Positions 10,669 through 40,773 of a DNA stretch of 64,000 nt are shown in pieces (within the stretch, counting starts at the first letter, position 1; each line of letters begins with the position of its first letter). Both the position numbers and the translations under genes were made by a program. Below the pieces are notes generated by a model. That model made no database searches, was not told the origin of the DNA, and saw nothing but the letters and a program-made list of their open reading frames with translations. The DNA is from Arthrobacter tumbae (GTDB taxonomy: Bacteria > Actinomycetota > Actinomycetes > Actinomycetales > Micrococcaceae), in NCBI RefSeq assembly GCF_016907495.1, contig NZ_JAFBCC010000001.1:2480001-2544000 (forward strand). Direction: 5' to 3'.

Positions 10669-11528
10669 GCCGGACCCTTAAAAACTCGAACCTGGAGATG
10701 GAACTTGACGCGTCAGGCATGCACCGAGTGCGCCAGTCGCACCACGGGTCATCCTGTGGATTGGCTCCACCCGCTACTCGAAGTTGGAGTGACGCCCGTC
10801 TTAGCGAACAGAGCACCAATGATGACGGCGAGTGGGGGCCGGCGACGTCCCGTGGGGAATGGACCCTCATGTACCTTCGTGGGCTCACCGTCAGACAGAT
10901 TGCCACCCTGTGCCGTGTCGATTACGAAAAAGTACGGCTCCACATCCGCTCCCAAGAGCGTCGCGACCCGACCCTCCCCGGGCGCCGGCTGATCCTCCAT
11001 GACCAGCCGGCGCCGGCACCACCGCAGCGGAGTGCCCCATATCGGGTGCCCTGGGAAGACAGGTTCGTCAAACTGCGGAAATTTGTCCAACGCCAACGGC
11101 GGTTCCCTCAGCAGCTCTCGCCGAACATGGAGGAGAAGAACTTGCACCGTTGGCTCCGGCACCAGCGCACCCGCTACACCGAAGGACGCATGAGCAAGGA
11201 CCAGGTGAAGCAGCTCGACACTCTCGGACCCTGGCGCGGCACCATGCTCGGTGACCGGGAAACCCACTGGCGGGCCGTCCACACCCAACTGCTGCAGTTC
11301 ATCCAGGACACCGGGCGCATGCCGCACCGCGAAAACGAAGGCGCCACCGCGCTCGAGGCGACCCTCGACGTCTGGATTCAAACCCAACGGGCCAAAGCCC
11401 GCGCCGGGAAACTCAAACACATCAGGCGGCATACCCTCGACCGATCCGTCCCGGACTGGAACAACACGCGGACCTCGTTGCGCTCAGGTGCACGTTCCGC
11501 CCTTTTGCAGACAATTTCGGCTCGCTAG
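10665..11528 (+). CDS. Helicase-associated (HA) domain protein
   Basis: A 287-aa protein. The first ~120 residues are low in recognisable features but include an HTH-like stretch (MYLRGLTVRQIATLCRVDYEKVRLHI). Two HA-type domains follow, at about 128-192 (WEDRFVKLRKFVQRQRRFPQ...LHRWLRHQRTRYTEGRMSKDQVKQLDTLG) and 200-265 (WRAVHTQLLQFIQDTGRMPHR...WIQTQRAKARAGKL). HA domains usually sit at the C-terminus of bacterial SF2 helicases. Here they are encoded as a separate protein that overlaps the helicase stop by four bases, so it is likely a DNA-binding partner of that enzyme. Confidence 0.7.
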   Translation: MSRTLKNSNLEMELDASGMHRVRQSHHGSSCGLAPPATRSWSDARLSEQSTNDDGEWGPATSRGEWTLMYLRGLTVRQIATLCRVDYEKVRLHIRSQERRDPTLPGRRLILHDQPAPAPPQRSAPYRVPWEDRFVKLRKFVQRQRRFPQQLSPNMEEKNLHRWLRHQRTRYTEGRMSKDQVKQLDTLGPWRGTMLGDRETHWRAVHTQLLQFIQDTGRMPHRENEGATALEATLDVWIQTQRAKARAGKLKHIRRHTLDRSVPDWNNTRTSLRSGARSALLQTISAR

Positions 11529-11635
11529 CGGGCGGTGAGACCACGAAGCGACCAGCCCAGACGGTGTGAAGCGCCAGGCTTTGTCGAAGTTGATTGGTAA
11601 GCGGAAGCCAGCCTTTCACCTCGTGCTTCACCTAG

Positions 11636-11847
11636 AAGGACGCGGGCGGGGTCCGTACTGCGTTCCTCGCCGCAGGTGCGGCCGAGGGGTATGCGTCTGT
11701 GTCAGACTTGATCGAGAAAGCGGTCCTGAAGGAAGTGCGCCGGCTGCACCGCAAGTACAACGGCGGCGAACCCCGGGGCCGGTCCCGCCGAGTGCTTTCC
11801 GTACGGGCAGGCGGAATCTCGACGAGGAGAAGCACCGGACCGAATAG
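11636..11847 (+). pseudogene. ParB-like partition protein remnant (C-terminal end)
   Basis: From 11636 one frame reads KDAGGVRTAFLAAGAAEGYASVS and then DLIEKAVLKEVRRLHRKYNGGE, which resembles the C-terminal dimerisation/DNA-binding end of plasmid ParB proteins of Arthrobacter relatives (the S-D-x-I-x-x-A-V...E-V-x-R-L...K-Y-N-G-G pattern). At about 11770 the frame shifts and the expected ending continues in another frame (PVPPSAFRTGRRNLDEEKHRTE) to a TAG at 11847. A TAG at 11633 blocks the frame upstream, and no N-terminal part is seen. It suggests plasmid-derived DNA. Recognition is from memory of the family pattern. Confidence 0.5.
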
Positions 11848-11870
11848 ATTTCCCTTCGCGCAGCGAACCC

Positions 11871-11903
11871 GGGGCCGGGAGCTGTGGTGCAGCTCCCGGC
11901 CCC
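11871..11903 (+). terminator. Perfect GC-rich hairpin
   Basis: A 13-bp perfect stem (11871-11883 with 11891-11903) closes on the 7-base loop GTGGTGC. It follows the ParB-like remnant by 23 bases and precedes the small HTH gene. There is no T-tract, but stems of this strength are typical actinobacterial terminators. Confidence 0.7.
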
Positions 11904-11953
11904 ACCTTCACGTCTAGGACGCCAGAAGATTGAGCAGAGGAGTACACCGCTAC

Positions 11954-12196
11954 ATGGCCGTACAGGACCAGCCCCGCTTCCTGACCATCAAGGACGTCGC
12001 GGCCGAACTGGCAACCAGCGAATCCCAGATACGTGCACTCCTCAGCTCCGGGGATCTGCCCGCGATCCAGATTGGCGGCCGCGGGCAATGGCGCATCGAA
12101 CGGGCAAAATTCGAGGATTACATCGCCGACGCCTACACCCGCACAGTCGAAGCACTCAAACGAGGCATGGACGTCAGCACCGAAGACGAAGACTAG
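11954..12196 (+). CDS. Excisionase-family helix-turn-helix protein
   Basis: An 80-aa DNA-binding protein of the MerR/excisionase (BldC-like) type: FLTIKDVAAELATSESQIRALLSSGDLPAIQIGGRGQWRIERAKFEDYIADAY. A TTG at 11930 would add eight residues, but the ATG at 11954 is preceded by AGAGGAG, at a slightly long spacing, and begins the usual MAVQxQPRFLT sequence of this actinobacterial group. These small proteins are conserved regulators in Micrococcaceae and related genera rather than true prophage excisionases. It stands alone with its own terminator-separated upstream region. Confidence 0.75.
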   Translation: MAVQDQPRFLTIKDVAAELATSESQIRALLSSGDLPAIQIGGRGQWRIERAKFEDYIADAYTRTVEALKRGMDVSTEDED

Positions 12197-12541
12197 GCCT
12201 GACCTTTACTTCTTCTCAGGCGGGCAACGGGTGGCTCTCTGTTCGCGCTCATTCCTGAAGCTTCCGCGTTCCCGCTCCACGCCGTCGGCGAACCACCCAG
12301 CCTCCTCCCAAGGTCAGTCGGTAGGATCGCTATCAGCACATCGATTCCCCCATCGGTGATGCTTAGTGAGGATTCGGACGATGAGACTCGATCCTCACCC
12401 AGTGCCGGCTCCCGTACGTTTCCCCCATTCGTACGGCCGCCGGCACCACTCATTCAACTGATGACTTCGCCCGCAGAGATTGCGTTCTTCCAGAAGACTG
12501 CAGTGGATTAGGGTCTCGTCGAACCAGTCTTCCGTGAGCAG
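12197..12541. other. 345-base intergenic region
   Basis: No convincing gene. It lies between two convergent genes (HTH on plus, umuC on minus). An imperfect inverted repeat GTGAGGAT...ATCCTCAC (12366-12373 with 12391-12398) might act in termination. A minus-strand open frame here has no recognisable content. Confidence 0.4.
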
Positions 12542-13840
12542 TCAGCTGGCTTTCACGACAGGTAGTTCGTCCCATCCGGTGGTGTAGCGGGGGGATTGGT
12601 GTTTGCGGCTCATGGTCCAGTCCGGTGGTTTGAGCATGCCGGCTGCACCAAGGCCAATGCTGGTGGAACCGTACTTATCCTTGACCTTACCCATGAGGCT
12701 GCCGATCTCACGGCGCTCGTGCACCGTCACGAACTCGTCGAAGGTCGGTTCGGCTCCGGCGGGGGAGAGACCGGTCAGCATGACTCTGGCCCGCGCATAG
12801 GGGACTCCTTCGATCAATTCGCCGTCCAGGGCGTTCACGGCAGCCTTGGTAAGGATGACCGGGTCAGCGGTCGGTGTCGACAGTTTCACTGTCACGGACG
12901 GGAAGGAGGAGGCCCTCTCGTTGAAATGCGACGTCCCGGCGAACACGGTCATCACCTTCGCAACCTGTTTGTCCCGGGCCAGCCTGACTGCAGCAGACTG
13001 GGCGTACAGGGACAGGACTTCATGCATGTCCTTGATGGTGATGACCGGGGTGGAGAACGACCGGGAAAAGATCGTCTGCTTCTTGTCTGCGCGGGTGGTT
13101 TCCAGTTCGATGCACGGGACGCCGCGCAGCTCCAATACCTTCCGCTGGACGACGACATTGAACCTCTTGCGGATCAGCACCGGATCGGCGTCCCGTAGGT
13201 CCTTGATGGTGTGAATGCCCATGACGTTCAGGCGTTTACCGAGACGGCCGGCGATTACCCAGATGCCGGTGACCGGGACGCGGCTCATGATGGTTTCTAC
13301 GTGCGCGGCCGGCATGGTGTCCAGATTGCAGACCCCACCCATCCAGGGGTTCTGCTTCGCGACCCGGTTGGCGAACTTCGCCAGGGTTTTCGTGGGCCCG
13401 ATGCCGACGCACACGGGCAGCCCGGTGTTCCGGGCAACAGTCGATCTGATGTTCCTGCCGGTAACGACGAGCTCCTCGGGAGCGCCCTTGAGAAGCAGGA
13501 ACGACTCGTCGACGGAGGACACCTCAAGGGCAGGCGAGTACCGCCCCAGGATCGTCATGAAGCGAGCGGATAAATCACCATAGAGCTCGTAATTGCTCAA
13601 CCGCTGGATCAGGCCCCACCCTTTCGCACGGGCCGCCAGCTTGAACCACGGCTCTCCCATCTCGATGCCCAGCGCTTTGGCCTCGTTCGAGCGGGCCACC
13701 ACGCAGCCATTGTTGGACAGCACCACCGTCGGAACACCCTCCAGTGCGGGGTCGAAAACGCGTTCACAGCTGACATAGAAGCTGTTCGCGTCCACGAGGG
13801 CGAAACGGCGGTGGTCATGGCCAAGACCTTTCTGGGTCAT
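12542..13840 (-). CDS. umuC: Error-prone DNA polymerase V catalytic subunit UmuC
   Basis: A 432-aa Y-family polymerase for translesion synthesis. Catalytic metal-binding residues are visible as D17 in [17 protein letters not shown] and D111-E112 in [13 protein letters not shown]. The little-finger region and the UmuC-specific C-terminus ([27 protein letters not shown]) are present, and the length is normal. It lies 50 bases downstream of umuD and should be co-transcribed from the SOS promoter ahead of umuD. Such umuDC pairs are often carried by plasmids and genomic islands in this group, which suits the surroundings. Confidence 0.93.
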
Positions 13841-13890
13841 CAGTGCGGTCCTAGGGTATGTGCACTCTCGCGCTCACCTTTGGTGCCGCC

Positions 13891-14325
13891 TCAGACATAG
13901 TGTAGACACCGGGTGACCACACCCCAAATGCTCAGGTCCGACAGTTCGGCAACCACGATGTCCGGAAACGCCGGATTCTCAGCAGCCAGAACGACCCCGC
14001 GGGCTGTGATGCGCAGCCTCTTAATGGATAATTCCCCGTCGAGCACGGCGACCACCACCGATCCGTCCTCGGGCGTGAGAGAGCGGTCAACAATGAGCTC
14101 GTCGCCGTCGCTGATTCCCGCGCCGGTCATACTGTCCCTGGAGACGCGCACGATGAACGTGCTCGTCGTATCGGCGATGAGGTGCTTGTTGAGGTCAATG
14201 CCTTTCTCGTAATAGTCCTGAGAGGGAGAAGGAAAGCCGGCAGGAATGGACATCGGAGAAACCAGAATCATGGCGTCCGGTGCCCGAACCCTGACCTCCT
14301 GCACAAGAGTCACCGGCACTGTCAC
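13891..14325 (-). CDS. umuD: LexA-family S24 autopeptidase UmuD
   Basis: A 144-aa UmuD that is activated by RecA-stimulated self-cleavage and then joins UmuC. The likely cleavage site is A29-G30 (SIPAGFPSPSQ). The catalytic Ser is S65 (VSRDSMTG) and the general-base Lys is K102 (GELSIKRLR). The start is a GTG with AGGTGG six bases upstream. The SOS box lies directly ahead of that ribosome-binding site. Confidence 0.92.
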   Translation of the reverse strand: MTVPVTLVQEVRVRAPDAMILVSPMSIPAGFPSPSQDYYEKGIDLNKHLIADTTSTFIVRVSRDSMTGAGISDGDELIVDRSLTPEDGSVVVAVLDGELSIKRLRITARGVVLAAENPAFPDIVVAELSDLSIWGVVTRCLHYV

Positions 14326-14338
14326 ACCGCACCACCTA

Positions 14339-14354
14339 TCGAAGAAGTATTCGA
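14339..14354 (-). promoter_or_regulatory. LexA (SOS) box of umuDC
   Basis: The palindrome TCGAAgaagtaTTCGA closely fits the actinobacterial LexA operator TCGAAC-N4-GTTCGA. It ends 13 bases before the umuD start codon, in an AT-rich stretch that should hold the -10 region. Confidence 0.85.
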
Positions 14355-14839
14355 TTAAAATACACCCTCACGAGCTCAACCACAGGTGGACGACCTTTGA
14401 GCGTCACCCCTTCGGGCTCCACCCGCCCACAGATGGATGACCTAGATCAGCTTTTGCTGTGCAGTGCCACGAGCTAGAAGAGGCTGTGCATATCCCACCG
14501 CTCACTCAGGGCGAGCTCTCCGGTGTCGGTGACGTGGTGGATGTGTGCAGGCGGGCCTATGGCCCCTGCTGTCCATTTGTGTGCGGGACAAGCAGCGAAG
14601 CGAGGGGGGCTTGTGCCGTGCACATATGGGCAGAAGGCCCTCAACGCGATGCTCACCATTGTGTTAGATAGTGCGAGCAATAAACGATCCACTCGTGCAC
14701 GATGGTGCGGCGCCCCAATAACCCTTTTGGGCACAGGAGCAACGTCGCGAAGACGAAGACGGCATCAGAAAAAGCGCGCGGTGTCGCGTCATAGTCGGGC
14801 AGAAAGAGCAGTCAACTCATAATTCGGTATGGTGCGGAG
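14355..14839. other. 485-base region without a supported gene
   Basis: Divergent upstream region between umuD and the hypothetical gene at 14840. Short open frames exist on both strands, such as 14474-14734 minus, but none has a family pattern or a clear ribosome-binding site. Small inverted repeats occur (around 14715-14735) without a T-tract. Confidence 0.4.
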
Positions 14840-15661
14840 GTGGAAGATTTCGAGGACATGGTTTTGGAAATCCGTCAGGGTGTAGAGAGGCGAGGCCTGC
14901 GCCTCATGGAAGCGGTATTCCCGGGGCAGCCGGCTGTAGTTCTTCAGTATGAGACGACTTCCGTTGACGAAATCCTTGACCTGGCCCAGCACGCGTTCGC
15001 GCCATTTTTGTCCCTCACGGTTTCGCGCCTTGACCCATCAGAACTCATAGAAACATGGCATCCGGATGACGATGCGAAACCGGAGCCGCCCCCACAGCTT
15101 TTGAACCAGTGGCAGGAGCGTTCCGGACAGATTGATGGGGTTTTCCTCCAATGGATCGCCAGTGGTGCCGTATTCCTCTACCACGCTGTGCCGTCCTGGA
15201 AGCAGGAGTTGGAGGAGATCCAAGAAAGCTGGTCCGAGGAGCAGGACGCTCAGAGCACAAACCTGTATAGGGCATCCCGGATCCGAATAACACACCTAGC
15301 CGAACAGCTCGAGCGTGATCCTCAGTACCGGGGCGGAACGACCCACACACGCGTCTCCATTGGCAAAACTTTTCTGGAGCCGTTGCTGCAATCTAACGAA
15401 GGTGGCTACATCACCACCCTCATTCTGCGAGAGGCAAGCCGCCTCGTTCGCGATAACGCACAAGCCGAATACTCGAAGCTGATGGGGCGCATAGACGAAT
15501 TAGCTAGAGAATTGCGCGCCAGCCTGCCCTGGCAGGAGATTCACACAGTCAGAGACCGCACAGCTGTAGCGCGGAAATTTCTTACCGAGCAGTCGAACGG
15601 ATACGCACCTTCCACAGCCATGACCAATGAACTGCGCAGATTGGCCGAACAATCCAGATAA
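14840..15661 (+). CDS. Hypothetical protein
   Basis: A 273-aa soluble, acidic protein with no family I recognise. The first ~70 residues look like a compact alpha/beta domain (VLEIRQGVERRGLRLMEAVFPGQPAVVLQYETTSVDEILDLAQ). The middle is rich in Trp/Gln/Glu (LLNQWQERSGQIDGVFLQWIASGAVFLYHAVPSWKQELEEIQESW) and the C-terminal ~120 residues are predicted helical. The GTG start has GCGGAG upstream; an ATG at 14858 is also possible. It lies alone in the accessory region. Confidence 0.6.
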   Translation: MEDFEDMVLEIRQGVERRGLRLMEAVFPGQPAVVLQYETTSVDEILDLAQHAFAPFLSLTVSRLDPSELIETWHPDDDAKPEPPPQLLNQWQERSGQIDGVFLQWIASGAVFLYHAVPSWKQELEEIQESWSEEQDAQSTNLYRASRIRITHLAEQLERDPQYRGGTTHTRVSIGKTFLEPLLQSNEGGYITTLILREASRLVRDNAQAEYSKLMGRIDELARELRASLPWQEIHTVRDRTAVARKFLTEQSNGYAPSTAMTNELRRLAEQSR

Positions 15662-15778
15662 CAACGGGCGCCGGTGGGAAAATCATGCCGCCTACAAACC
15701 GGTGCCCTACTCTGCATTGGCAATTGACTGACGCTGGTTGCTTCTAGGGTTCATCGACCGTACTCCGGTTTTCCTGCT

Positions 15779-16270
15779 TCAGGTATGCCTGCCTGATGAA
15801 CCCTGTTCGGGTGGTTCGACCAGCACTTTTATCCGTTCGAGGAACGCTTGGGCCGCGGCCAAGTACTGCTGGCGGACTTGATTGATTGCTCTTACCTGGG
15901 TCCCTGGGACAGTGACGCTGAGTAACTGCTCAAGCCGAGTGCCGCCCGGTATTTCTGTCAGTCTGTACCCGGTACGTGCTGCCTCATCGGGATCCCCGAC
16001 AATTCGAATGAGGGCCCAACGCTTCGGTACTTCTTCTACAACCTCGACGAGGTGTACCTGCTCGCGTCCATCTCGGTGGCTAATATAGCCCTGCATCTCG
16101 CCGACATCATCGGGGGTGCCCGGTACACGGAACGCTTTCACTACATGTGGATCAAGGAGCGTAGCGGTTTCCGCCGGTTTGATGAGAGCCCAAACCTCGC
16201 CGGGGGTGGCAGCTAAGTCGATGCCTGCGGCGACATCGATCACTTCATCACGCAAACGTTCAAATTCCAT
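15779..16270 (-). CDS. SRPBCC-family protein
   Basis: A 163-aa protein of the START/polyketide-cyclase-like SRPBCC fold, which binds hydrophobic ligands. Signs are the N-terminal GIDLAATPGEVWALIKPAETATLLDPHVVKAFRVPGTP, typical of the first strand and helices, a middle beta-sheet (VHLVEVVEEVPKRWALIRIVGDP) and the long C-terminal helix (RQQYLAAAQAFLERIKVLVE). It stands alone on its strand. The ligand is unknown. Confidence 0.65.
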   Translation of the reverse strand: MEFERLRDEVIDVAAGIDLAATPGEVWALIKPAETATLLDPHVVKAFRVPGTPDDVGEMQGYISHRDGREQVHLVEVVEEVPKRWALIRIVGDPDEAARTGYRLTEIPGGTRLEQLLSVTVPGTQVRAINQVRQQYLAAAQAFLERIKVLVEPPEQGSSGRHT

Positions 16271-16419
16271 CGAACCGCCCCCCTACGGCTTGAGACCGCG
16301 GACGCCTCACAGGATCAGCGAAACGACACCTACACAGAAAGGTAGCTCACCGCACTGACAAGCTAGGTTCAGATGAGAATTCTGACGCCCCAAGCTACCA
16401 GGGCAGCATGCGGTTCTTG

Positions 16420-17331
16420 TTATCCAGCGTGCGAAAGATGCAGATCGGAGTGCGCAGCAAAATTAGGGGCGGTGTGTGCGCTGTAGGCGCTGCACACCTT
16501 GCCGATAAGGAGGTCCACGGCGGCTTCGACGTCCTTGGTTTCTGCCGGGATGCCTCGGCGGACTCGGCTTTCTGCGTTCACGATGATGTATCCCCATCCG
16601 AACAACGCGTCGCAGCCCAGGCTGCAGACAAGCATTGCCACGGACCGAAAGTCTTTGCGCTCCTGCTCGGTGCACTCGCTTCGAGGCTTGATGTGGCCGG
16701 CGATCAGGAGTCGGGACGGGCGTTCCTCACCACAGATTGAGCACGGTGCTGTAACCCGGCCCCGCAGTAGATGCCGACGCAGATCTGCTTGTTCTTGGCG
16801 AACCTCACCAAGAGACACTGCATCTGTACTTTCACCTTCCCAGAATTCGTCCGGCCGTCCGAAGAGGCTTCCACCGTCGGTGGTGCCAGGAGCAGGCAAA
16901 TCGAGCTCTGCCAAGAGTGCAAGGCCGTCCTCCTCGGACAGCGCTGACAGGTACTTTTCCTGCGGTCGACCATTTCTGTCGAGCGGTGCGCTGCCTCCTA
17001 CGCGGATCAGCTGGGCAACGCGCTTGTAGTGCAGTTGTAGATCGGTTCGAATGGGATCAACCTTGACTAGCCAGCCGTCGTCGCCTTCCCCTTCGAATAT
17101 CAGCGGGTAGCCCTCCGGACGAGGCCACGGCCTCCATGGCTCCGACACCCGGCTGACCGCGCGGAGGAAGCTCTCCGCATGGTGAAACACGATGTCCCCT
17201 GGCTCCAGAGACTTGATTAGTCCACGGGCAATATCAACTCGGCCATTGGCGCGCGGACAAGTCCACAGAGTTCCAAGGGGGATCACTGTGCGGTAATTGA
17301 CGCCTTGGCTCGCCCACCAGTAATTGATCAT
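16420..17331 (-). CDS. EVE-like / HNH endonuclease (probable modification-dependent nuclease)
   Basis: A 303-aa two-domain protein. Residues 1-110 resemble an EVE/PUA-like domain (YWWASQGVNY... LWTCPRANG... LEPGDIVFHHAESFLRAVSRV), a fold that reads modified cytosines in restriction enzymes. Residues ~190-255 form an HNH-type nuclease with zinc-type cysteines C197 and C200, the HIKPR motif at H213 and a C-terminal CSLGCDALFGWGYIIVN. Known EVE-HNH enzymes cut DNA that carries modified bases. No methyltransferase lies beside it, as expected of a type IV enzyme. The substrate is inferred from architecture. Confidence 0.7.
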   Translation of the reverse strand: MINYWWASQGVNYRTVIPLGTLWTCPRANGRVDIARGLIKSLEPGDIVFHHAESFLRAVSRVSEPWRPWPRPEGYPLIFEGEGDDGWLVKVDPIRTDLQLHYKRVAQLIRVGGSAPLDRNGRPQEKYLSALSEEDGLALLAELDLPAPGTTDGGSLFGRPDEFWEGESTDAVSLGEVRQEQADLRRHLLRGRVTAPCSICGEERPSRLLIAGHIKPRSECTEQERKDFRSVAMLVCSLGCDALFGWGYIIVNAESRVRRGIPAETKDVEAAVDLLIGKVCSAYSAHTAPNFAAHSDLHLSHAG

Positions 17332-17543
17332 GTCGCCTCCCAGACGAGTCGCTTCGCTCTAACAAACTATCGGACAGTCATGCACTCGCCCGACGTAGCA
17401 TTCCGTTATCGGCGTAAAGACATTGGAGCGTAAACCGGTGAGGCCTGGAATGAGTACTCAGGCGTGGCGTAAGTCCGGCAATCGCTGTTTATTGAGGGCG
17501 CCTGCTACCGTTCCACCATCATCACTTGAGCCTTGGGGGATCC

Positions 17544-19064
17544 ATGTCTAATTTATCGTCCGGTGCATTGCCTGAACCCGGGAAACCAAAGAAGAAGCCG
17601 CGAGGCTTCGCATCGCGTGTATGGCTCGCCGGTGTGGGCTTGGTATTCATCGCGATCCTCCCAACAGAAGCGTTCGTTGTCAGTCTCCTGGTGGCGGGCG
17701 GCATCTTGTGGGTGCTGTTGGACATGGTCAAGCAGTATAAGAAGGCGTTCGGAGCCTCAGCCGAAGGACTTGGGATCAGTGCACAGAACACCTACCGGAC
17801 CAGTATGGGTGCCCCGCCGGTGCCAGCTGCCGGGTTGAAGCTCTATGCGGACGAGGTCTACATGGCCAACACCCAGATGATGACCGATCTACACCGCATC
17901 GGAGCCATGGACCTTCTGGCCCGTGAACAGCGGGTCGCGGACTTGAACACTGAGGTTGCCGCCATGGAGCGGAACCTCAGCACAGCGCGCGAGGAGCTTG
18001 GGTCGGTCCGGGGTGAGGTGCTGGATGTCCGAGAGGTGGCAGAACGGCACAACGTCGGGTTCTACGACTACGAGCACCCAGCTGAAACCTCCATCAAACT
18101 CGCTGACGAGTTGGCCACGGTTCGGGCACGGATCAAAGATGCCCTAAAGCAAAAACATGCTGTCTCTGCTGTCTCGGGATTTACGTTCAATGGGTCGACG
18201 AAGGAAGGCGACAAGTTCGTTCGGGACCTTTCTGCATTGCTCCTACGTGCATACAACGCCGAAGCCGAGAACTGTGTGAAGACGGTGAAGGCCGGAAACC
18301 TGCACACCGCTCAGGCCCGCCTGCAGAAGTCACGGGAACAGATAGCCAAGCGCGGCACCATGATCGGCCTCAGCGTTACCGACTCCTTTCACTCCCTACG
18401 TGAACACGAACTCGAACTTGCCGCTCGGCATCTGCAGGCCCTGGCAATCCAAAAGCAGCTCGAGGCTGAAGCGCGGGCCGAAGCTCGCGAGACCGCCAAA
18501 GCCCAGCGCGAGTGGGAAGCACTGAAGGCCAAGCAGCAGAAGGAGGTCAGCCATTACATGACCGTGCTCTTGCAACTGCAGGAAGCAGGCGACCTCGAAG
18601 GTGTTCAGCGCGTTCAGGACCAGCTGGAGGAAGCTGAAGCCAAACTGGCCGACTCGGAAGACAACGCCCTCAACACCCGTGCCGGCTACGTCTATGTCAT
18701 CTCGAACCTCGGAGCCTTCGGCGAAGGTGTGGTCAAGGTCGGTATGACGCGACGGCTGAACCCCATGGAACGTGTGCGCGAACTCGGAGATGCCTCCGTG
18801 CCGTTCCTGTTCGATGTCCATGCCTTGTTTTTCTCCAAAGACGCCGTCGGCATCGAAAGTATGTTGCATCGTCACTTCGCTGCCGAACGGGTCAACCTGG
18901 TGAACCTCCGGCGTGAGTACTTCTACGCCACCCCAGCCCAGGTCAAGGAAGCCCTCGTCGAACACAGCGTCGAACTCGTCGAATACCGGGAAGAAGCACC
19001 AGCCGAAGAGTTCATCACCTCAAAAGACCTGCGGCAAGCAATCCCATTCGCAGGTGCTGCATAG
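17544..19064 (+). CDS. DUF4041 protein with C-terminal GIY-YIG (T5orf172-type) nuclease domain
   Basis: A 506-aa protein. Near the N-terminus (~20-60) is a hydrophobic hairpin (VWLAGVGLVFIAIL... FVVSLLVAGGILWVLL) that should place it at the membrane. A coiled-coil region (~105-165) and a DUF4041-like helical block (~180-400, including long Ala/Glu/Lys/Gln helices) follow. The last ~110 residues are a GIY-YIG-like module: GYVYVISNLGAFGEGVVKVGMTRR, then ESMLHRHF and RREYF. The ATG at 17544 has GGGGGA five bases upstream. Such proteins occur in phages and in bacterial defence regions. It stands alone; function in DNA cutting is inferred from the domain. Confidence 0.75.
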   Translation: MSNLSSGALPEPGKPKKKPRGFASRVWLAGVGLVFIAILPTEAFVVSLLVAGGILWVLLDMVKQYKKAFGASAEGLGISAQNTYRTSMGAPPVPAAGLKLYADEVYMANTQMMTDLHRIGAMDLLAREQRVADLNTEVAAMERNLSTAREELGSVRGEVLDVREVAERHNVGFYDYEHPAETSIKLADELATVRARIKDALKQKHAVSAVSGFTFNGSTKEGDKFVRDLSALLLRAYNAEAENCVKTVKAGNLHTAQARLQKSREQIAKRGTMIGLSVTDSFHSLREHELELAARHLQALAIQKQLEAEARAEARETAKAQREWEALKAKQQKEVSHYMTVLLQLQEAGDLEGVQRVQDQLEEAEAKLADSEDNALNTRAGYVYVISNLGAFGEGVVKVGMTRRLNPMERVRELGDASVPFLFDVHALFFSKDAVGIESMLHRHFAAERVNLVNLRREYFYATPAQVKEALVEHSVELVEYREEAPAEEFITSKDLRQAIPFAGAA

Positions 19065-19368
19065 GCGTGTTAGAGAAAGCTAGTGATCGAGTCGCCAGCA
19101 TGCCTGAATCGCTGCCTAGGTCTCTGTAACGCCGAAGGCCGCACGTTCTGGACCAAGGTTCGTCGCGGGGGTAAACCAATGAAAGCTTGCGGCTTCACAC
19201 CACGGGAAAGTCGAAGTGAACGGTTTTATCGGTAGCCGCACGATCACAAGAAGGTGTCAAAAGACGTTAATAGGACCTATTGATTGGCTTGGGCCAAAGC
19301 ATGCCGACCAAGCTTTAGGGTTACATGCAGACAGTAGTTCAATGCTTTAGCAAGTGACTGGGGGAGTG
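19065..19368. other. 304-base intergenic region
   Basis: Upstream of the four-gene cassette. I see no gene, terminator or strong repeat. It should hold the promoter for the gene at 19369. Confidence 0.35.
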
Positions 19369-20649
19369 ATGGAGACGTTCGACGAAGGCCTCCGCTGCCA
19401 AGATATACATTCTGGGCTTCGCAATGTGGACCCAAACTCACCCCTGCTCGGACCGCTCAGCGATACCAGGATGGTTGGTATGGCGGCTACCCTTGCAGGT
19501 TTGATCCGTGGCCGTGATGTTATCGAGGATGCTCAAGCTCTAATGCAAGTTGCAGCTCATCAACTTGATGTCCAAATGTTGTCTTTCGGGGAAGTCATCG
19601 CCGTCCTTGAGGATTCCGGTTTCGTGCAGGGTGTGCAGCGCCAAGGCGGAAAAATTGTCACCTTTACTGAGAATGTCCCCTTCTACGACGATCTTTACAG
19701 AACGCTTGGTGACGCTTGGAGAAGTCGAACCCCAACCGAACTGGAACAACAGTTGCTGGTCGTGGTCGATGGGCTGGCTCAAGCGCCAGTTCCGTTAGAG
19801 TCCATCGAAAGTCAGTATGGGCTTGACCATGGAGCCATGTCTGATCTCTTAGAAGTTGGTTCGGGCGCTGGGCTTATTCAAACACTGAGAACGATTGATG
19901 GTGACATCGCCTACTCACCCTTCTTTGGATTTGAGAATCCTCAGCTGCTCCAGACTCTCGTGATGGAACACGGAAGCGACCAGCTCATATCTGAATTCGC
20001 TGCCGTACGTAGCAGGCAAGGCCTAGAACTGAGTGTGGAAAAGTATCCGTTGCTGACTGGGGCTGTTGCTGGGGGCCTTGTGATGGCACCCGCTGTTCGG
20101 CTACCCGATGGGAGTATGCAAGCATTTGCGGCCCTCCCCTATGTCTCGGATCCCAATCTGCTCGTGGCACGAAAACCAGTGCTAGAGAAGGCCCTTGCGG
20201 TACTAGCGTGCTTGCGTTGTGCCGAGAATTATGGTGAGTACAATACGTTGTCTCCGGAGGCCCTAATCAGCGTGATTAACAAACTTCTTGATCCAAACCG
20301 GGGATTTTTGGCGCCGAATAGCGCCCATCGCCGGCAATACGAACTGATGCGAAACGCGGGGTTGCTGGTTTTTGCTCCTGACTTACGGGCTGGCGGTAAC
20401 TGGGTCACACCTCGTTTTGTCGATACAGAAGATAACCGTGAGGCTTTACTACTTGCCCGCGACCTTATTGTTCACGGTGAGCTAGTCGAACACCGGGTCG
20501 ACGATTCAGTCGCCCGCACAGCCCTGGCATCGGGAAAGGGATACAAGGCGCCCATGCAAACCAGCCACCGCCTTAGAGAGTATGCACAACCGTCTCCTAA
20601 GCAGTTCGAAAAGATCTTTGAGAAAGCGATGGGGTTGAGTGCTCTATGA
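19369..20649 (+). CDS. Hypothetical protein, first gene of a putative defence cassette
   Basis: A 426-aa protein of no recognised family. Stretches such as LSFGEVIAVLEDSGFVQGVQRQGGKIVTFTENVPFYDDLY and ALISVINKLLDPNRGFLAPNSAHRRQYELMRNAGLLVF look like winged-helix units, so a DNA- or protein-binding scaffold with several such units is plausible. The start is uncertain: in-frame GTG codons at 19354 and 19366 are alternatives to the ATG at 19369. The stop overlaps the next ATG by four bases. Base composition is clearly more AT-rich than the flanking core genes, a sign of transfer. Confidence 0.6.
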   Translation: METFDEGLRCQDIHSGLRNVDPNSPLLGPLSDTRMVGMAATLAGLIRGRDVIEDAQALMQVAAHQLDVQMLSFGEVIAVLEDSGFVQGVQRQGGKIVTFTENVPFYDDLYRTLGDAWRSRTPTELEQQLLVVVDGLAQAPVPLESIESQYGLDHGAMSDLLEVGSGAGLIQTLRTIDGDIAYSPFFGFENPQLLQTLVMEHGSDQLISEFAAVRSRQGLELSVEKYPLLTGAVAGGLVMAPAVRLPDGSMQAFAALPYVSDPNLLVARKPVLEKALAVLACLRCAENYGEYNTLSPEALISVINKLLDPNRGFLAPNSAHRRQYELMRNAGLLVFAPDLRAGGNWVTPRFVDTEDNREALLLARDLIVHGELVEHRVDDSVARTALASGKGYKAPMQTSHRLREYAQPSPKQFEKIFEKAMGLSAL

Positions 20650-22052
20650 GTGAGCTGGATCTCGGATTGAAGGTCGGAGCAAGACGTCTGCTCTGGAGCA
20701 TGGGATTCAGTACCCGGCTCGATGTGGAACTTCGAGGAGACCCGAAACCCGCCCAAAGCGGCTCAAAAAATGCTCGAGGCGCGGGACGGGAATGGGCAGG
20801 CCCGGAAACCTTCACGGATCTTGATGTCCTTGGAGTTCTTCTTACTCCCAATTACCGGCTGACTACAGCGATTGCCGATTGTAAATCCGGGCGACGGGAT
20901 AAGCCCACCGCGAGGATGTTTTGGGCACGGGGAGTGGCCGACCTTTTTGGAGCTGATCAGATCATGTTGGTTCGTGAACATGATGTGAATGACGCGACGA
21001 GACAGCTCTCAAGCCGCCTCGGGATTACCGTCCTACCTTCAGCCGACCTGGCTCTTATGCAACAACTACATGGAAGCGCACAGCCTGATCCGAGTGACCC
21101 ACTCGGTTTACTGTTCGATCGTGAAGCCGCTTCCGAAAATCTTGCGGCTTTCCATTCGCTTGATAGCAGGCTCAACAGCTTGATGGAATATCGGCAGTTC
21201 GACTATTGGATATATGAGCATCATCGCAACCCGATCCAGCTGGTCGCTCATCTTAAGGAGGCAGGTAAACATCTTGACCCCCGTAACCCTATCCATCTCG
21301 CACTCTTCTTGGACCTTGCTTGGCTATACCTACTAGCTCTAGTCCGAGTCACAGAGCATCTTCGTGGCGCCTTTTTGAGGGACCCAGACCGCGGGCTCCA
21401 AGAGTACTTGTTTGGTGGAGCGACGCAGTTGCGGGAAAAGGAGGAAACGGCGGCGTTGCTCCGCACCGTTGCGCCGACAGGTAGTCCAGATCTAGACCAT
21501 TTACCTGCTTACTACAGCAACATGCGAGAACTTGTCGCGCGATTGCTGCGCCGACCTAATGAGATCCAAGAGGGCCTTCGATACGCAGAAGTAGCCTCAG
21601 CTTTGATGGCAGCAAAGAAGCGCATCCCGCTAGGTGACGTTTTCGGGAGAAACTTTGATCCTGTGGCAGCGAAGCTGGTCGCGGATGTTTGCGGATTTTT
21701 GGTCGCTTCTGCAGGACTATCTCCGAGTTTCCGTGCTCAAGCACGGGCATACCTCCTAGGAGAACCGTTGCCAGGGGTGAATCGACAGGAGAAATCGATA
21801 GTAGGTCAGGCACCTGCTTCCCCTGTGTCAAAGCAATTACATCGGGAGGAACAGCATGATCAATCGGAACCCAAAACTAAGGATGATGTCGGAGACGGAA
21901 CAACTGACGACCGTCCATCGAAGAGTCCTAACTCTAGTACTGCACCTGGTTCCACGAAGGACGAAACGACGCTCTTAGATGAGCGTGTGATTCTTGCCGA
22001 TCAGCATCAACTAGATCTCAGGATTTCCGAACCGAAACCACCGAATGGCTAG
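20646..22052 (+). CDS. Putative PD-(D/E)XK nuclease-like protein
   Basis: A 468-aa protein with no named family. The N-terminal ~110 residues carry a restriction-nuclease-like pattern: FTDLDVLGVLLTPNYRLTTAIADCKSG, in which D60, D78 and K80 match the D...(D/E)xK catalytic layout. It is followed by ARMFWARGVADLFGADQIMLV, like the next helix and strand of that fold. The middle part (~150-390) is helical. The last ~80 residues are hydrophilic, Ser/Thr/Asp-rich and probably disordered. It is coupled to the preceding gene by an ATGA overlap, giving a two-gene unit. Nuclease activity is inference from the motif. Confidence 0.6.
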   Translation: MSELDLGLKVGARRLLWSMGFSTRLDVELRGDPKPAQSGSKNARGAGREWAGPETFTDLDVLGVLLTPNYRLTTAIADCKSGRRDKPTARMFWARGVADLFGADQIMLVREHDVNDATRQLSSRLGITVLPSADLALMQQLHGSAQPDPSDPLGLLFDREAASENLAAFHSLDSRLNSLMEYRQFDYWIYEHHRNPIQLVAHLKEAGKHLDPRNPIHLALFLDLAWLYLLALVRVTEHLRGAFLRDPDRGLQEYLFGGATQLREKEETAALLRTVAPTGSPDLDHLPAYYSNMRELVARLLRRPNEIQEGLRYAEVASALMAAKKRIPLGDVFGRNFDPVAAKLVADVCGFLVASAGLSPSFRAQARAYLLGEPLPGVNRQEKSIVGQAPASPVSKQLHREEQHDQSEPKTKDDVGDGTTDDRPSKSPNSSTAPGSTKDETTLLDERVILADQHQLDLRISEPKPPNG

Positions 22053-22195
22053 CAGAGGTCAACCCCGTTCGTGCCGCAAGCGCCCCCGCGTCATTAGTGC
22101 AAGACACGGACGATGTGGGCATTCGAGACTGCAGCAGGTCAACGGTCGCGATGCAGCCGTTGACATAAGCTTCTCGAAGGAATGATGAGGGGGAC

Positions 22196-22717
22196 ATGGA
22201 GATGACAGTCACCGTAGCGTCAAGAGGCCCTGCGAGGTTGCCGCAAACTGCGCGCCAGGAACGGTACGGTCTCGCCTATTTATCGGACGTCTGTGCTGAT
22301 GCCGGTGTCGGAGTTGTGGAGACGCGACCAGGCGAGGATCATTATGCAATTGACGCTTACGTAGTGCTTCCAATTGGGTTGGTGCCCGTGCAAGTGAAGT
22401 GCACTACGAAAAAGTTTACCGTCAGAGATCCTAAACACATCAATTGGCCTATAGAGAAACCTTGGTGGGATAAGTGGTGTGAGAATACGGCTCCAGTTTT
22501 TATTCTTTTAGTGCACGTTCCTGAAGACGAGACAACTTGGATCGACTTTGGTTCGGATGATCTAACGACCCACCACACGGCAGCGTATTGGGTTGAAGTC
22601 GACAAAACTTCTGATTCGGTGCCAACCTCTATTGACTTGGCTCGTAGTCAACGCTTCACGAAAGACACCATTCAGGAATGGCAAGTCATTTACGAGCGGG
22701 GCATTGGTCGTCCATGA
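22196..22717 (+). CDS. DUF4365-type protein (PD-(D/E)XK-like)
   Basis: A 173-aa protein resembling DUF4365, a nuclease-like family. The N-terminal RQERYGLAYLSDVCADAGVGVVETRPGEDHYAIDAYVV is followed by LVPVQVKCTTK, giving the D53...Q66-x-K68 arrangement. The remainder (WPIEKPWWDKWCENTAPVFILLVHV) fits the same family. The ATG at 22196 lies very close to GAGGGGG; the ATG at 22202 has better spacing. Its stop overlaps the ATG of the next gene (ATGA). DUF4365 proteins are often found in defence-like settings. The DNA is AT-richer than the core. Confidence 0.7.
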   Translation: MEMTVTVASRGPARLPQTARQERYGLAYLSDVCADAGVGVVETRPGEDHYAIDAYVVLPIGLVPVQVKCTTKKFTVRDPKHINWPIEKPWWDKWCENTAPVFILLVHVPEDETTWIDFGSDDLTTHHTAAYWVEVDKTSDSVPTSIDLARSQRFTKDTIQEWQVIYERGIGRP

Positions 22718-23886
22718 AACTTTTTCCATCAGACTTAATCACTATCAATGCTGAAAAGAACCTAGCAGATTATCTGGCTTATAAAGGCTGGAATCATTTA
22801 TCCGAAGGATCGTTCGGCGTTCTCTGGAATCATCCATTGCATGGCGGCGAGGTCGGAGTTCCAAGGGGTATCCGTTCGGGCACAGGGATGTGGGATGGAA
22901 CGATTTCTATGATCGCTCAGTGGGAAAACTCCAGCGGGTATGAGGTTGATAAGACAGTTCGTCGCTTCTGGATGGATGTGTCCGATTTCCGCGCTCAAAG
23001 CTCGGTGGTGCGTGGCAACTACATTGCTGCTGAGGCGGGGTCATCTTTGTTTAGTGGAGCTTGGAAGATTCTTCGCTCATCTGCGACGACATCTCGAGGC
23101 ACCAAGATTGCAATCGGTGGAAAATACTCGTCCCTGGGTGATCGATCTATTGATGGTGCTATGTTTGCTCAAACTGAGCCTGGATCTTATATTCTTCCTT
23201 TGTTGGTGCCGATTGATCGCTCCATCGCTGAAGCTAGTCTCAGAAAGGCAGATCATATAGACGAAGGATCACCTGAGGATTTCTTTCAGACTATTTCGGA
23301 GGAGACTGAACAGAGAAGAGCAACTCGCACGATGGCACAAGCGTTGACCGCGATTTATCAAAAGATTATTGAACCAGCCGTTGACCCGACGATGCGCGCA
23401 ATAAATGAAACAGTCGTCGCTGGTGCAAGTCGGGAGATGGTGGTGGCACTTTACGACATCATCAATGAAGAAACCGTTTCAGCTCTCGACGTGACGTTCA
23501 GCTGGGCACCGAAAGCAGGCAAGATTTCTGGAGTTAGCTCGTCTGTGGAAGTACCGAAGGAATCTGCTGTCTTGCTGGAACGTGCCGCAAAACAGATGAA
23601 GATTGCCAGGGAACCCGCTAGTGCACTTGTCAGTGGCCCAATCTTTGCGCTCTACCATCCAAAAGGACTCGATTCTGGCGAAGCGACTATCGAGGCAGCG
23701 CATCGAGGCAGGATTCGTCGTATCACGGTCGCGCTCAGGGGCGCTGAAGAATTAGACAATGCACATCGATGGTTCCGCGGCCATGAAACGCTCCTGGTTG
23801 AAGGTGCTGTTAGATCAACCGCGGACGGACTCAAGATCGATCGGCCCTCGCAGTTACGTCCCTTGGGACAATCGTTACTGTTCTGA
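22714..23886 (+). CDS. Hypothetical protein coupled to the DUF4365 gene
   Basis: A 390-aa protein I cannot place in a family. It begins MKLFPSDLITINAEKNLADYLAYKGWNHLSEGSFGVLW; the overlap with the upstream stop (ATGA) fixes the start. The middle (~190-260) is a long helical stretch with a threonine/arginine-rich turn (QRRATRTMAQALTAIYQKIIEPA), and the C-terminal ~100 residues look like a beta-rich domain (IRRITVALRGAEELDNAHRWFRGHETLLVEGAV). No membrane segment. It likely acts with the DUF4365 protein, as effector or inhibitor; which one cannot be told. Low-G+C composition matches its neighbours. Confidence 0.6.
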   Translation: MKLFPSDLITINAEKNLADYLAYKGWNHLSEGSFGVLWNHPLHGGEVGVPRGIRSGTGMWDGTISMIAQWENSSGYEVDKTVRRFWMDVSDFRAQSSVVRGNYIAAEAGSSLFSGAWKILRSSATTSRGTKIAIGGKYSSLGDRSIDGAMFAQTEPGSYILPLLVPIDRSIAEASLRKADHIDEGSPEDFFQTISEETEQRRATRTMAQALTAIYQKIIEPAVDPTMRAINETVVAGASREMVVALYDIINEETVSALDVTFSWAPKAGKISGVSSSVEVPKESAVLLERAAKQMKIAREPASALVSGPIFALYHPKGLDSGEATIEAAHRGRIRRITVALRGAEELDNAHRWFRGHETLLVEGAVRSTADGLKIDRPSQLRPLGQSLLF

Positions 23887-23923
23887 CACACCGCGGACGC
23901 TCGAGGTTCTCAGGGGATGGGGG

Positions 23924-23985
23924 CTAGGGTGTCCGTTGAACGATGCGGTTCACCGTGCTCCGGGCAACCTTAAACAGCTCCGCGG
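23924..23985 (-). pseudogene. Serine recombinase (resolvase/invertase) C-terminal HTH scrap
   Basis: Read on the minus strand, 23985 to 23924 gives AELFKVARSTVNRIVQRTP and a TAG stop, the pattern of the C-terminal helix-turn-helix of serine resolvases/invertases. Nothing of the catalytic domain remains: the sequence changes at about 23985 into the acdS fragment. It marks an old mobile-element breakpoint. Confidence 0.55.
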
Positions 23986-24342
23986 CTCGGGATCGACGCC
24001 TCCGCCACCCTGGACAAGACCCGCCACTAGGTGGCTCGCATCGCCCGCAATACCGCCAACCTCATCGGCCTGGAACGCGACCTGCGCGACGACGAAATCA
24101 CCGTCCTCGAAGGCTGGGCCGGCGACCTCTACGGCATCCCGGTCGAGTCCACGCTGGAAGCCATGCGGCTCAGCGCCTCACTCGAAGCGATGATCACCGA
24201 CCCCGTCTACGAGGGCAAGTCCATGGCCGGCATGATCGATCTCGTCACCAGCAAGGACATCCCGGCCGACAGTAACGTGCTCTACGCCCACCTCGGCGGT
24301 CAGCCCGCGCTCAACGCCTACAGCGGCCTCTTCAGGAGCTAA
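23986..24342 (+). pseudogene. Duplicated 3' end of acdS (ACC deaminase)
   Basis: The last ~118 codons of acdS, collinear without gaps with 40417-40773 of the intact copy and nearly identical over long stretches. A change in the region matching codons for Arg-Asp-Gln makes an in-frame TAG at 24028-24030. There is no start and no N-terminal two thirds, so no enzyme can be made. The fragment converges on and overlaps the end of the dehydrogenase gene by 11 bases. It forms the left copy of a direct repeat that brackets the sulfoquinovose cluster. Confidence 0.9.
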
Positions 24343-25270
24343 GAGACGACGGCCCCTCGAGCACCACGTTCGCGGGCTCCTCGCCTTCACGCAGCAGGCC
24401 GATCTGCTTCTTGATCAGCCGAACAACCCTCGGGAACATCGCAGAGCTGGCTCCGCCGACGTGCGGGGTAATCAACACTCCGGGTGTACTCCACAACGGG
24501 TGGTCAGGTGGCAGGGGCTCCGGGTCCGTGACGTCCAGGGCTACACGAAGTCGTCCGGAAGACGTCTCGGCTACCAGGGCGTCGGTGTCGGCGACGGCGC
24601 CTCGCGCTACATTCACCAGTAGGGCGCCGTCGGGCATCGCGGCCAGGAACTCGGCGTCTATCAGCCGTTCAGTCTGCTCGCTCAGTGGAACGCTAACTAC
24701 AACGATCTCGTGTAGCGGTAACTGTTCATGAAGGGCATCGATACCGTGAATGATCCCCGCTTCGTCTTCACGGGCACGGCTTGCCATCCGGGTGATCTCC
24801 GCTTCGAATGGCAGCAGGCGGGCCTCGATGGCCTTGCCCACCCCTCCGTATCCCACCAGCAACACGCGGCGATCGGCCAGGCTCGGGCGTTGGCTGTTAT
24901 CCCACGTTTCCGCGGCCTGACTGCGGACGAAGTCAGGAATTCCACGCTGGCTGGCGATCATCATGCCCAAGGCAAGCTCCGCCGTTGAAGGCTCATGAAC
25001 CCCGGCCGCATTGGCGAAAACGCTACCTTCGGGAAGATATGGCCCGACGCCGTCGTACCCGATCGACTGACTCTGCACCAGCCCTACGTCTATTCCCGCC
25101 AGTGCGGCGAGCGTCTGCGGCTTACTCATGTAGACGGGGACCAACAGGTCCAGCCGTCCCTCGGGCGCGGGGCCGCTCAGGTCCCACAGGATGAATTCGA
25201 CGCCGTCCATGGGCTCCAGCGCTTCCAGTAACCTCTTGTCCGGAAGGCACACCCGCAAGAGGGCCGTCAT
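24332..25270 (-). CDS. D-isomer-specific 2-hydroxyacid dehydrogenase
   Basis: A 312-aa NAD(P)-dependent dehydrogenase. The Rossmann motif is VLLVGYGGVGKAIEARL (GxGxxG). The catalytic triad of the family is visible as Arg in NVARGAVADTDAL, Glu in DVTDPEPLPPDHPLW and His in ITPHVGGASSAMF. The ATG overlaps the stop of the DeoR-type regulator by four bases, so it is expressed with that regulator at the edge of the sulfoquinovose cluster. The substrate is unknown. A three-carbon sulfonate such as sulfolactate is a position-based guess; a general 2-ketoacid is equally possible. Confidence 0.85.
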   Translation of the reverse strand: MTALLRVCLPDKRLLEALEPMDGVEFILWDLSGPAPEGRLDLLVPVYMSKPQTLAALAGIDVGLVQSQSIGYDGVGPYLPEGSVFANAAGVHEPSTAELALGMMIASQRGIPDFVRSQAAETWDNSQRPSLADRRVLLVGYGGVGKAIEARLLPFEAEITRMASRAREDEAGIIHGIDALHEQLPLHEIVVVSVPLSEQTERLIDAEFLAAMPDGALLVNVARGAVADTDALVAETSSGRLRVALDVTDPEPLPPDHPLWSTPGVLITPHVGGASSAMFPRVVRLIKKQIGLLREGEEPANVVLEGPSSLSS

Positions 25271-39597: not shown

Positions 39598-39750
39598 TCC
39601 CGTTCCGGTTTGCTCATCTATCCGTTGCCGCAAAGGTGGATGGGCCTTCGAAGCGGAGCTGTTGTGTGCCAAAGGTGAGCAAACCGGGACATCCCGCAGG
39701 GGCCGGGAGTAGTGATTGACTGGGGCTCACTACCGAGAAAACGAGGACCC

Positions 39751-40773
39751 ATGGCCATCACGGACTTCGAACGCTATCCGCTCACCTTCGGCCCCAGCCC
39801 GGTGCACCACTTGCCGCGGCTCAGCAAGCACCTCGGCGGCGCGCAGCTGTGGGCGAAGCGGGAGGACGTGAATTCGGGCCTCGCGTTCGGTGGCAACAAG
39901 ACCCGCAAGCTCGAGTACATCGTCCCCGACATCCTCGCGGAGGGCGCGGACACCATCGTCTCCATCGGCGGCTACCAGTCCAACCACACCCGGCAGGTCG
40001 CTGCAGTCGCCGCGAAGCTCGGTCTGAAGGCGCTGCTGGTTCAAGAAAACTGGGTCGACTGGCCGGATCCGCTCACCGACCGCGTGGGCAACATCCTGCT
40101 CTCCCGGCTCATGGGCGCGGACGTGCGCCTCGATGCGGCCGGTTTCGACATCGGCATCCGCGACTCCTGGAAAGACGCCGTCTCCGAGGTGGAAGCAGCC
40201 GGTGGCAAGCCGTACGCCATTCCGGCCGGCGCTTCGGAGCACAAGTTCGGTGGACTGGGCTTCGCCAACTGGGCCCACGAGGTGCAGCAGCAGGAGAAGG
40301 AATTCGGCGTCTTCTTCGACACCATCGTGGTGTGCACGGTCACCGGCTCCACCCACGCCGGCATGATCGCCGGTTTCGCCGCTCTCGAGGACGCCGGCGG
40401 ACGTCCCCGCCGCGTCCTCGGCATCGACGCCTCCGCCACCCTGGACAAGACCCGCGACCAGGTGGCGCGCATCGCCCGCAATACCGCCACCCTCATTGGC
40501 GTCGAACGCGACCTGCGCGATGATGAGATTACCGTCCTCGAAGGCTGGGCCGGCGACCTCTACGGCGTCCCCGTGGACTCCACGCTCGAAGCCATGCGCC
40601 TCAGCGCCTCATTCGAAGCGATGATCACCGACCCCGTCTACGAGGGCAAGTCCATGGCCGGCATGATCGATCTCGTCGCCAGCAAGGACATCCCGGCCGA
40701 CAGTAATGTGCTCTACGCCCACCTCGGCGGCCAGCCAGCACTCAACGCCTACAGCGGCTTGTTCCGAAGCTAA
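39751..40773 (+). CDS. acdS: 1-aminocyclopropane-1-carboxylate deaminase
   Basis: A 340-aa PLP enzyme that breaks the plant ethylene precursor ACC into ammonia and 2-oxobutyrate. The PLP lysine is K50 in [12 protein letters not shown]. The sequence follows Acd[56 protein letters not shown]. The Glu in DPVYEGKSM and Leu in YAHLGG, which separate ACC deaminase from D-cysteine desulfhydrase, are both the ACC-deaminase residues. The ATG at 39751 has GAGGA upstream. The last ~357 bases are repeated at 23986-24342. The gene suggests a plant-associated or soil lifestyle. Confidence 0.9.
40417..40773 (+). repeat. Right copy of the acdS 3'-end direct repeat
   Basis: Collinear, gap-free match to 23986-24342 in the same orientation. 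The two copies bracket about 16 kb that hold the whole sulfoquinovose cluster and the TetR/MFS pair. Confidence 0.9.

Follow-up and report, generated by a model that had tools for sequence, protein, structure and literature searches.

A predicted winged-helix and nuclease gene pair, adjoining a PDC-M02 member, as a candidate defense module in Arthrobacter tumbae

Four consecutive genes in a 64,000-nucleotide stretch of the Arthrobacter tumbae genome (the window) raise the question of whether they form one defense system or two, and whether any such system is already on record. An earlier note, made from the sequence alone, had proposed them as a candidate undescribed defense cassette, consisting either of a single system with all four genes or of two systems with two genes each. 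In the ORF listing of the window, the four genes (A to D) all lie on the plus strand.

Gene A: 19369..20649, plus strand, 426 aa; modeled winged helix; homologs found, without library match
Gene B: 20646..22052, plus strand, 468 aa; PD-(D/E)XK nuclease-like (D60, D78, K80); 4-nt overlap with A
Gene C: 22196..22717, plus strand, 173 aa; DUF4365 nuclease-like, PDC-M02A (D53, Q66, K68)
Gene D: 22714..23886, plus strand, 390 aa; PDC-M02B partner
Pair A+B: 19369-22052
Pair C+D: 22196-23886
Upstream neighbor: 17526..19064, plus strand; PD-Lambda-1/SNIPE homolog, a separate known defense gene (DUF4041 plus GIY-YIG-type T5orf172)
Right edge: 23986..24342, plus strand; partial copy of a predicted PLP-enzyme gene, with ORF 24031-24342

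The unusual base composition noticed earlier was borne out: third-position GC is 0.50-0.53 in the ORFs of A, B, and C, whereas its median in the ORFs at 32-64 kb is 0.77, and D, represented by total GC instead, lies in a region (22-24 kb) with values of 0.51-0.53. Conservation of the four ORFs rules out that they arose by chance. The ATG start of A is backed by alignment A1, with a GTG 15 nt upstream, while for D we prefer the start at 22714, which overlaps C by 4 nt, over the earlier ATG of the ORF listing at 22678, which would yield 402 aa. No known RNA element was matched at the Rfam gathering score in 11000-25000, and promoter and terminator scans gave signals no higher than in shuffled sequences.

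Genes A and B recur as a pair. Removal of 4 duplicates (L059=L005, L060=L009, L061=L025, L091=L003) from 28 A-bearing entries left 24 distinct records, in which the nearly identical L005, L008, and L058 are each still counted. B lies immediately 3' of A in 23 of them, mostly with a 4-nt overlap, and these records span Actinomycetota, Bacillota, and Pseudomonadota; one A was found without B. The two proteins co-evolve, as the distances between A proteins follow those between B proteins (r = 0.95, for 19 of the 24 records, all but L008, L015, L027, L058, and L090). The coupling first read from the window holds elsewhere. Its distribution is patchy, with A present in 5 of 394 sampled genomes of the class; two weak matches to the A family, in G478 and G567 (E 3e-4, over some 60 residues), were dismissed as spurious. 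Ten records are plasmid-located. Carriers of the pair include Arthrobacter sp. SW1 and EpRS71, a soil Priestia, and a Komagataeibacter plasmid. A phage-borne origin of A was rejected, as no relative was found in phages (searched with the A of the window) or in viral contigs (pattern scan). A fusion of the two genes was likewise rejected on the basis of BLAST: none of 120 listed B proteins carried A, and the single B match among 240 listed A proteins (P0173) was 20 residues long.

The surroundings of the pair are rich in restriction, CBASS, and other defense genes. Ninety-five flanking ORFs, hand-chosen from the 151 ORFs of 150 aa or more called at 13 loci (L008 being omitted as near-identical to L005), gave matches to 204 PADLOC families, against 4 for 95 control ORFs taken from 124 in 8 stretches. 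Both sets were called with a simple home-made caller; 10 further flank ORFs, picked as informative-looking, were scanned separately, and the other 46 lay outside the scan. The defense role that the earlier note had suggested has good support, which comes from genomic context in the case of A/B and from membership in a library in that of C/D.

Neither A nor B matched any family at E ≤ 1 in profile searches including Pfam and PADLOC v2, Mrr_cat and the other Pfam restriction domains among them, and NCBIfam and PHROGs likewise gave no match (searches at E ≤ 1 or E ≤ 0.01). Eight distant A/B relatives were without a PADLOC match at E ≤ 0.1, as were P0241, P0245, and the B proteins of L021, L022, and L024 in Pfam at the same threshold. 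In the portions of open-licence PMC literature available, no name for the pair was recognized among the matches listed. As regards Pfam, PADLOC v2, NCBIfam, and PHROGs, A/B is therefore undescribed; the same claim fails for C/D, which is held in PADLOC-DB as PDC-M02.

The N-terminal domain of B models as a restriction-like nuclease, and the rest of the model comprises a C-terminal domain made of helices alone and a tail of low confidence. D60, D78, and K80 are found at these positions, as are D53, Q66, and K68 in C, and the site of B is kept among proteins with only about 20% overall identity; the conserved D...(D/E)xK falls on the expected strands, placing B in the PD-(D/E)XK superfamily. The likeness of B and C to such nucleases was upheld. 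Invariance of E3 in B is confined to the actinobacterial relatives in alignment A2. A profile sequence search with B against solved structures gave no match at E ≤ 1.

Gene A had been called winged-helix-like and unknown. A winged helix does appear in its structure model, which is weaker than that of B, and the lack of any library match agrees with the second part. A profile sequence search against solved structures gave no usable match, the best being a BadM/Rrf2-family regulator (E 0.042), and the A of L027 gave a sub-threshold match to HTH_IclR in Pfam (0.019). BrxA/DUF4007 proteins, the triple-HTH DNA-binding subunits of BREX (PMC12839542), offer a comparison in that winged helices may likewise make up A, but no sequence link was seen, and DUF4007 was not matched in A at E ≤ 1 in Pfam. 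We propose that A is a DNA-binding or sensor subunit, or an activator.

The modeled nuclease fold of B resembles those of AF1548, AspBHI, and MspJI, which we take to represent Mrr-like, or type IV, modification-dependent restriction. As in such systems, a DNA-binding-type module accompanies a PD-(D/E)XK domain, and no methyltransferase was recognized in the pair. A/B differs, however, in comprising two polypeptides, neither with a Pfam match, and in the D-C-K active site and extra helical domain of B. Matches of B to the CRISPR ancillary nucleases Card1, Can2, and Cdn1 span only about 110 residues; unlike these, B has an all-helical second domain, and a part that would sense cyclic oligoadenylates was not observed.

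These comparisons suggest how the pair may act. B would be a restriction-like PD-(D/E)XK DNase that cuts DNA, and A, as a winged-helix protein, would bind B, DNA, or both. On recognizing a feature of the invading DNA or of infection, A would position or release B, licensing the DNase and thereby stopping phages or plasmids, so that A/B may be a split, two-subunit analog of Mrr-like restriction. On balance, we consider A/B probably a nuclease-pair defense module beside a separate PDC-M02 member, C/D. More tentatively, and with slightly more doubt than confidence, A/B could represent, in actinobacteria, one branch of a new immune system of two genes that occurs in 3 or more phyla. Its winged-helix protein would sense the invading DNA or the infection directly and turn on a DNase of the Card1/Mrr type, and the pair would involve no ATPase, methyltransferase, or nucleotide signal of its own. 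A pair as widespread as A/B would add a compact two-protein defense system, absent from every library searched here; since no self-protecting methyltransferase was recognized in it, the question arises of how the host is spared.

Alternatively, A/B may be a toxin-antitoxin or addiction pair that guards its element and not the host, with B as a toxic DNase and A as winged-helix antitoxin and autorepressor. The overlapping genes, the winged-helix partner, the 10 plasmid-located records, and the lone A without B are all in keeping with this. However, each of the two proteins is large, and A, which is encoded first, is the better conserved (63% against 49% mean column identity, a difference to which the variable tail of B contributes). 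Together with the strong clustering with defense genes, these features make an addiction pair unlikely. Addiction and defense roles are not mutually exclusive. Highly improbable is an island-borne DNA repair or plasmid-maintenance factor with an EndoMS/NucS-like B, as A/B is rare, patchy, and not core, and its flanks abound in defense genes (the genes searched for, as opposed to repair genes).

Whereas A/B, the putative nuclease-pair defense module, is new to the libraries searched, C/D is not. C contains DUF4365 (Pfam PF14280, 5.5e-14, 52.8 bits against a cut-off of 24.3) and matches PADLOC M02A (PDLC04291, 1.6e-18). D, whose gene overlaps that of C, was taken earlier for an unknown partner; PADLOC instead identifies it as PDC-M02B (PDLC04311, 1.2e-46). 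Judged by these profiles, C+D is the candidate pair PDC-M02, previously entered in PADLOC-DB, with adjacent M02A and M02B genes; the copy in the window is a diverged member without any structural difference seen. PADLOC lists PDC-M02 as a phage defense candidate, and the name is absent from the open-licence PMC literature searched. The pairing recurs as well: a DUF4365 gene lies immediately upstream of D at 10 of 10 other loci scanned, chosen from 19 for having a called upstream ORF. C would be a nuclease with a dedicated partner, D, that probably controls it; a profile sequence search with D against solved structures gave nothing usable (best 0.95). C weakly matches the PADLOC Aga_REase models in its nuclease part (5.7e-7), recalling the DUF4365-APAZ protein that accompanies the short Argonaute of SPARDA. 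C, however, is essentially DUF4365 alone, its only Pfam domain, within 173 aa, and the PADLOC match of D is to PDC-M02B, with none to an Argonaute model.

That A/B and C/D act jointly, as one four-gene system with two nucleases, would fit the low third-position GC common to A, B, and C and the order A-B-C-D on one strand, which is found both in the window and in Arthrobacter sp. EpRS71 (L002; PDC-M02A 1.4e-50, PDC-M02B 2.2e-130, where the frame of C begins 0.24 kb past B). However, only 2 of the 24 distinct records have C/D in the fetched flanks, whose lengths vary (L012 has only 0.3 kb downstream of B), and G673, of the same genus, has C/D but no A. Among the 5 A-positive genomes of the class, a strong full-length match to D was present only in the genome of the window itself, G191 having partial matches only. 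Moreover, D of L002 is only about 20% identical to that of the window, suggesting that the two adjacencies lack a recent common C/D ancestor; tblastn with C and D of the window missed this diverged pair, and profile searches were therefore used. Finally, a gap of 143 nt separates B from C, against 4-nt overlaps within both pairs. As C/D is missing from the fetched flanks of A/B in 22 of the 24 records, and A is missing from G673, which has C/D, we rejected the very unlikely four-gene reading. The choice the earlier note had left between one system and two is best answered by two independent, adjoining two-gene candidate defense modules.

A and B are preceded by two genes that had been called restriction-like, which needed correction. 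The gene at 17526-19064, just upstream of A, matches PD-Lambda-1 (PADLOC, 7.2e-96), DUF4041 (Pfam, 3.3e-15), and T5orf172 (Pfam, 5.8e-14); with DUF4041 and a GIY-YIG nuclease domain, it is a homolog of SNIPE/PD-Lambda-1 (PMC13190303). It is nevertheless a separate single-gene system outside A-D, with a third-position GC of 0.69. An N-terminal hydrophobic stretch was noticed in it by eye. The other gene had HNH_2 as its sole match, at 19.1 bits below the Pfam cut-off of 21. With a PDC-M02 member near a SNIPE homolog, the region appears to be an island of stacked independent modules, offering small, named loci for testing.

At the right edge, ORF 24031-24342 had been read as a recombinase scrap. 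This identity was rejected: the ORF matches PALP (4.1e-6, below the Pfam cut-off), and 23986-24342 (357 bp) is a 92% identical copy of the end of the intact PLP-enzyme gene at 39712-40773. By sequence, the ORF is the 3' part of a predicted PLP-dependent enzyme gene.

Genes A to D lie head to tail in the window, bounded by a PD-Lambda-1 gene on one side and by a fragment of a PLP-dependent enzyme gene on the other:

17526-19064, forward strand: PD-Lambda-1/SNIPE homologue, by Pfam and PADLOC matches
19369-20649, forward strand: gene A (ORF), with a modelled winged helix
20646-22052, forward strand: gene B (ORF), PD-(D/E)XK nuclease-like
22196-22717, forward strand: gene C (ORF)
22714-23886, forward strand: gene D (ORF, preferred start)

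Four nucleotides are common to A and B, and likewise to C and D with the preferred start of D, while a gap of 143 nt separates B from C. The ORF tool placed the starts of A and D 15 and 36 nt earlier, respectively, than those adopted here; the later ATG of A is the start in most of its aligned relatives. Third-position GC is 0.50-0.53 for A, B, and C, against 0.69 for PD-Lambda-1 and a median of 0.77 for the ORFs at 32-64 kb, so that this stretch is unlike both the core genome, as had been proposed earlier for all four genes, and the upstream defence gene. The region at 22-24 kb, which includes D, has a total GC of 0.51-0.53.

A and B are a pair, in agreement with the coupling claimed in the earlier note. 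B directly follows A at all 14 loci encoding A in the named genome set, and adjoins it in 23 of the 24 distinct A-bearing records when plasmid and other genome loci are included, the one exception being a Streptomycetaceae plasmid (L027). All 15 actinobacterial pairs measured overlap by exactly 4 nt, and the pairwise distances among A proteins correlate with those among B proteins at r=0.95 (0 of 5000 permutations as high), or r=0.98 with four distant pairs added. Searches of a large protein set at E<=1e-3, with 8000 candidates scored in each, gave at least 249 relatives of A and at least 279 of B; a profile built from the distant branch of A found 566. Plasmids from Priestia, Roseomonas, Komagataeibacter, and Burkholderia glumae carry remote relatives of A, at 23.6-25.5% identity, with a B-like gene following in 4/4 plasmid loci fetched, and plasmid searches with one distant A and, separately, one distant B returned the identical six records. 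Profile-profile comparison joined the two A branches with 99.9% probability across 394 columns. In Amycolatopsis sp. A133 (L015, 9923-11285), A is broken into two frames and B is open.

The set had been called undescribed, which holds for A and B in the libraries searched: neither matched Pfam, PADLOC v2, or NCBIfam at E<=1 or PHROGs at E<=0.01, the four distant pairs matched nothing in PADLOC at E<=0.1, and nothing in the excerpts of the open-licence PMC literature was recognised as this pair. It does not hold for C and D, which are listed in PADLOC-DB as PDC-M02.

Distribution and gene context suggest a defence role for A/B. The distribution of A is rare and scattered. It was present in 5/394 class genomes, its own included, with true matches in 2/395 family genomes and none in the 20 other same-genus genomes of that family set. 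A occurs on plasmids and was not found in the phage or viral collections searched. Genes near other A/B loci included type I restriction genes (loci L004 and L006), MzaC with a cytosine methylase (L012), CBASS cyclases (L014 and L015), PDC-M02 (L002), a C5 methylase (L007), and, in Burkholderia glumae, NsnA/NsnB. At 1e-10, 95 hand-picked ORFs flanking A/B loci matched 204 PADLOC families, against 4 for 95 control ORFs taken from eight stretches elsewhere; the ratio is overstated by these counts, since many PADLOC models overlap. Among the 25 of the 204 families listed, RmrA was matched by five ORFs and HORMA, TRIP13, and type I specificity subunits by two each. By eye, the RmrA-model ORFs are likely helix-turn-helix genes of L002, L004, L006, L014, and L015; some adjoin CBASS cyclases, and they are perhaps regulators. 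On a Mycolicibacterium crocinum plasmid (L025, 10755-17254), genes annotated as ThiF, multiubiquitin, ImmA/IrrE, and S8 peptidase adjoin A/B, an arrangement resembling a further defence module.

No methyltransferase, ATPase, or nucleotide cyclase was recognised in the A/B pair, and the choice between self and non-self must therefore sit in A, in the helical domain of B, or in regulation. In our preferred model, A/B would be a split type IV-like system, in which A would bind some feature of the invader's DNA, bringing the DNase of B to it. The main alternative would be a guarded nuclease, with B released by A upon infection, which would resemble a toxin-antitoxin pair.

C matched DUF4365 in Pfam and PDC-M02A in PADLOC-DB (1.6e-18), and D, previously taken for an unknown partner, matched PDC-M02B (1.2e-46). 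A DUF4365 gene lies upstream of D in 10/10 further D loci scanned, chosen from 19 as those with the upstream ORF already called. Among 13 aligned C proteins, that of the window included, Q-x-K is kept in 13 and the Asp in 12. Together, these features identify C/D, on sequence grounds, as a member of the listed candidate system PDC-M02. In the DUF4365 system TmuRE-Ago, as described in excerpts of PMC10810196, Q and K with spacing matching Q-x-K of C are proposed to belong to the active site, and DNA is degraded by the complex once activated. The likely mechanism of C/D would be a DUF4365 DNase (C) under the control of D. The M02B profile matched 54/394 sampled class genomes, many of them through partial matches only, in genus g36, which is probably Streptomyces. 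PDC-M02B-like segments turn up in many sampled g36 genomes, within frames of ~350-1050 aa (for example, G143:C6:294252-295247), suggesting that the D family may include a housekeeping or fused relative.

Whether the four genes form one system or two had been left open, and the records favour two modules within one island as the simpler reading over a single system. Of the 24 distinct A/B records, C and D profiles found C/D in 2, those of the window and of Arthrobacter sp. EpRS71 (PADLOC E values of 1.4e-50 and 2.2e-130 in the latter), and the same-genus genome G673 encodes C and D (43% and 38% identity), with A absent in the family genome search. The two D proteins share ~20% identity, which implies that the neighbourhood arose twice or that a replacement of one pair took place. 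Stacking the two nucleases may still be beneficial.

Of the two restriction-like genes previously placed upstream, the one directly upstream is instead the PD-Lambda-1/SNIPE homologue, a known defence gene. According to excerpts of PMC13190303, PD-Lambda-1 is now named SNIPE and is a membrane-bound nuclease, which cleaves the DNA of phages as it is being injected. A hydrophobic N-terminal stretch is visible by eye in the homologue. At the left of the island, a 273-aa ORF (14840-15661) matched nothing significantly in Pfam, PADLOC, NCBIfam, or PHROGs. The supposed recombinase scrap at the right proved to be a partial copy of the PLP-enzyme gene end, 16.4 kb from that gene, forming a 357-bp direct repeat of 92% identity (23986-24342 and 40417-40773). 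This partial copy suggests recombination at the right border of A-D, though no recombinase. The 16 kb between the repeat copies, whose first genes resemble, by eye, those for a dehydrogenase, a DeoR-like regulator, a kinase, and sugar transport, is a possible recombination or insertion unit.
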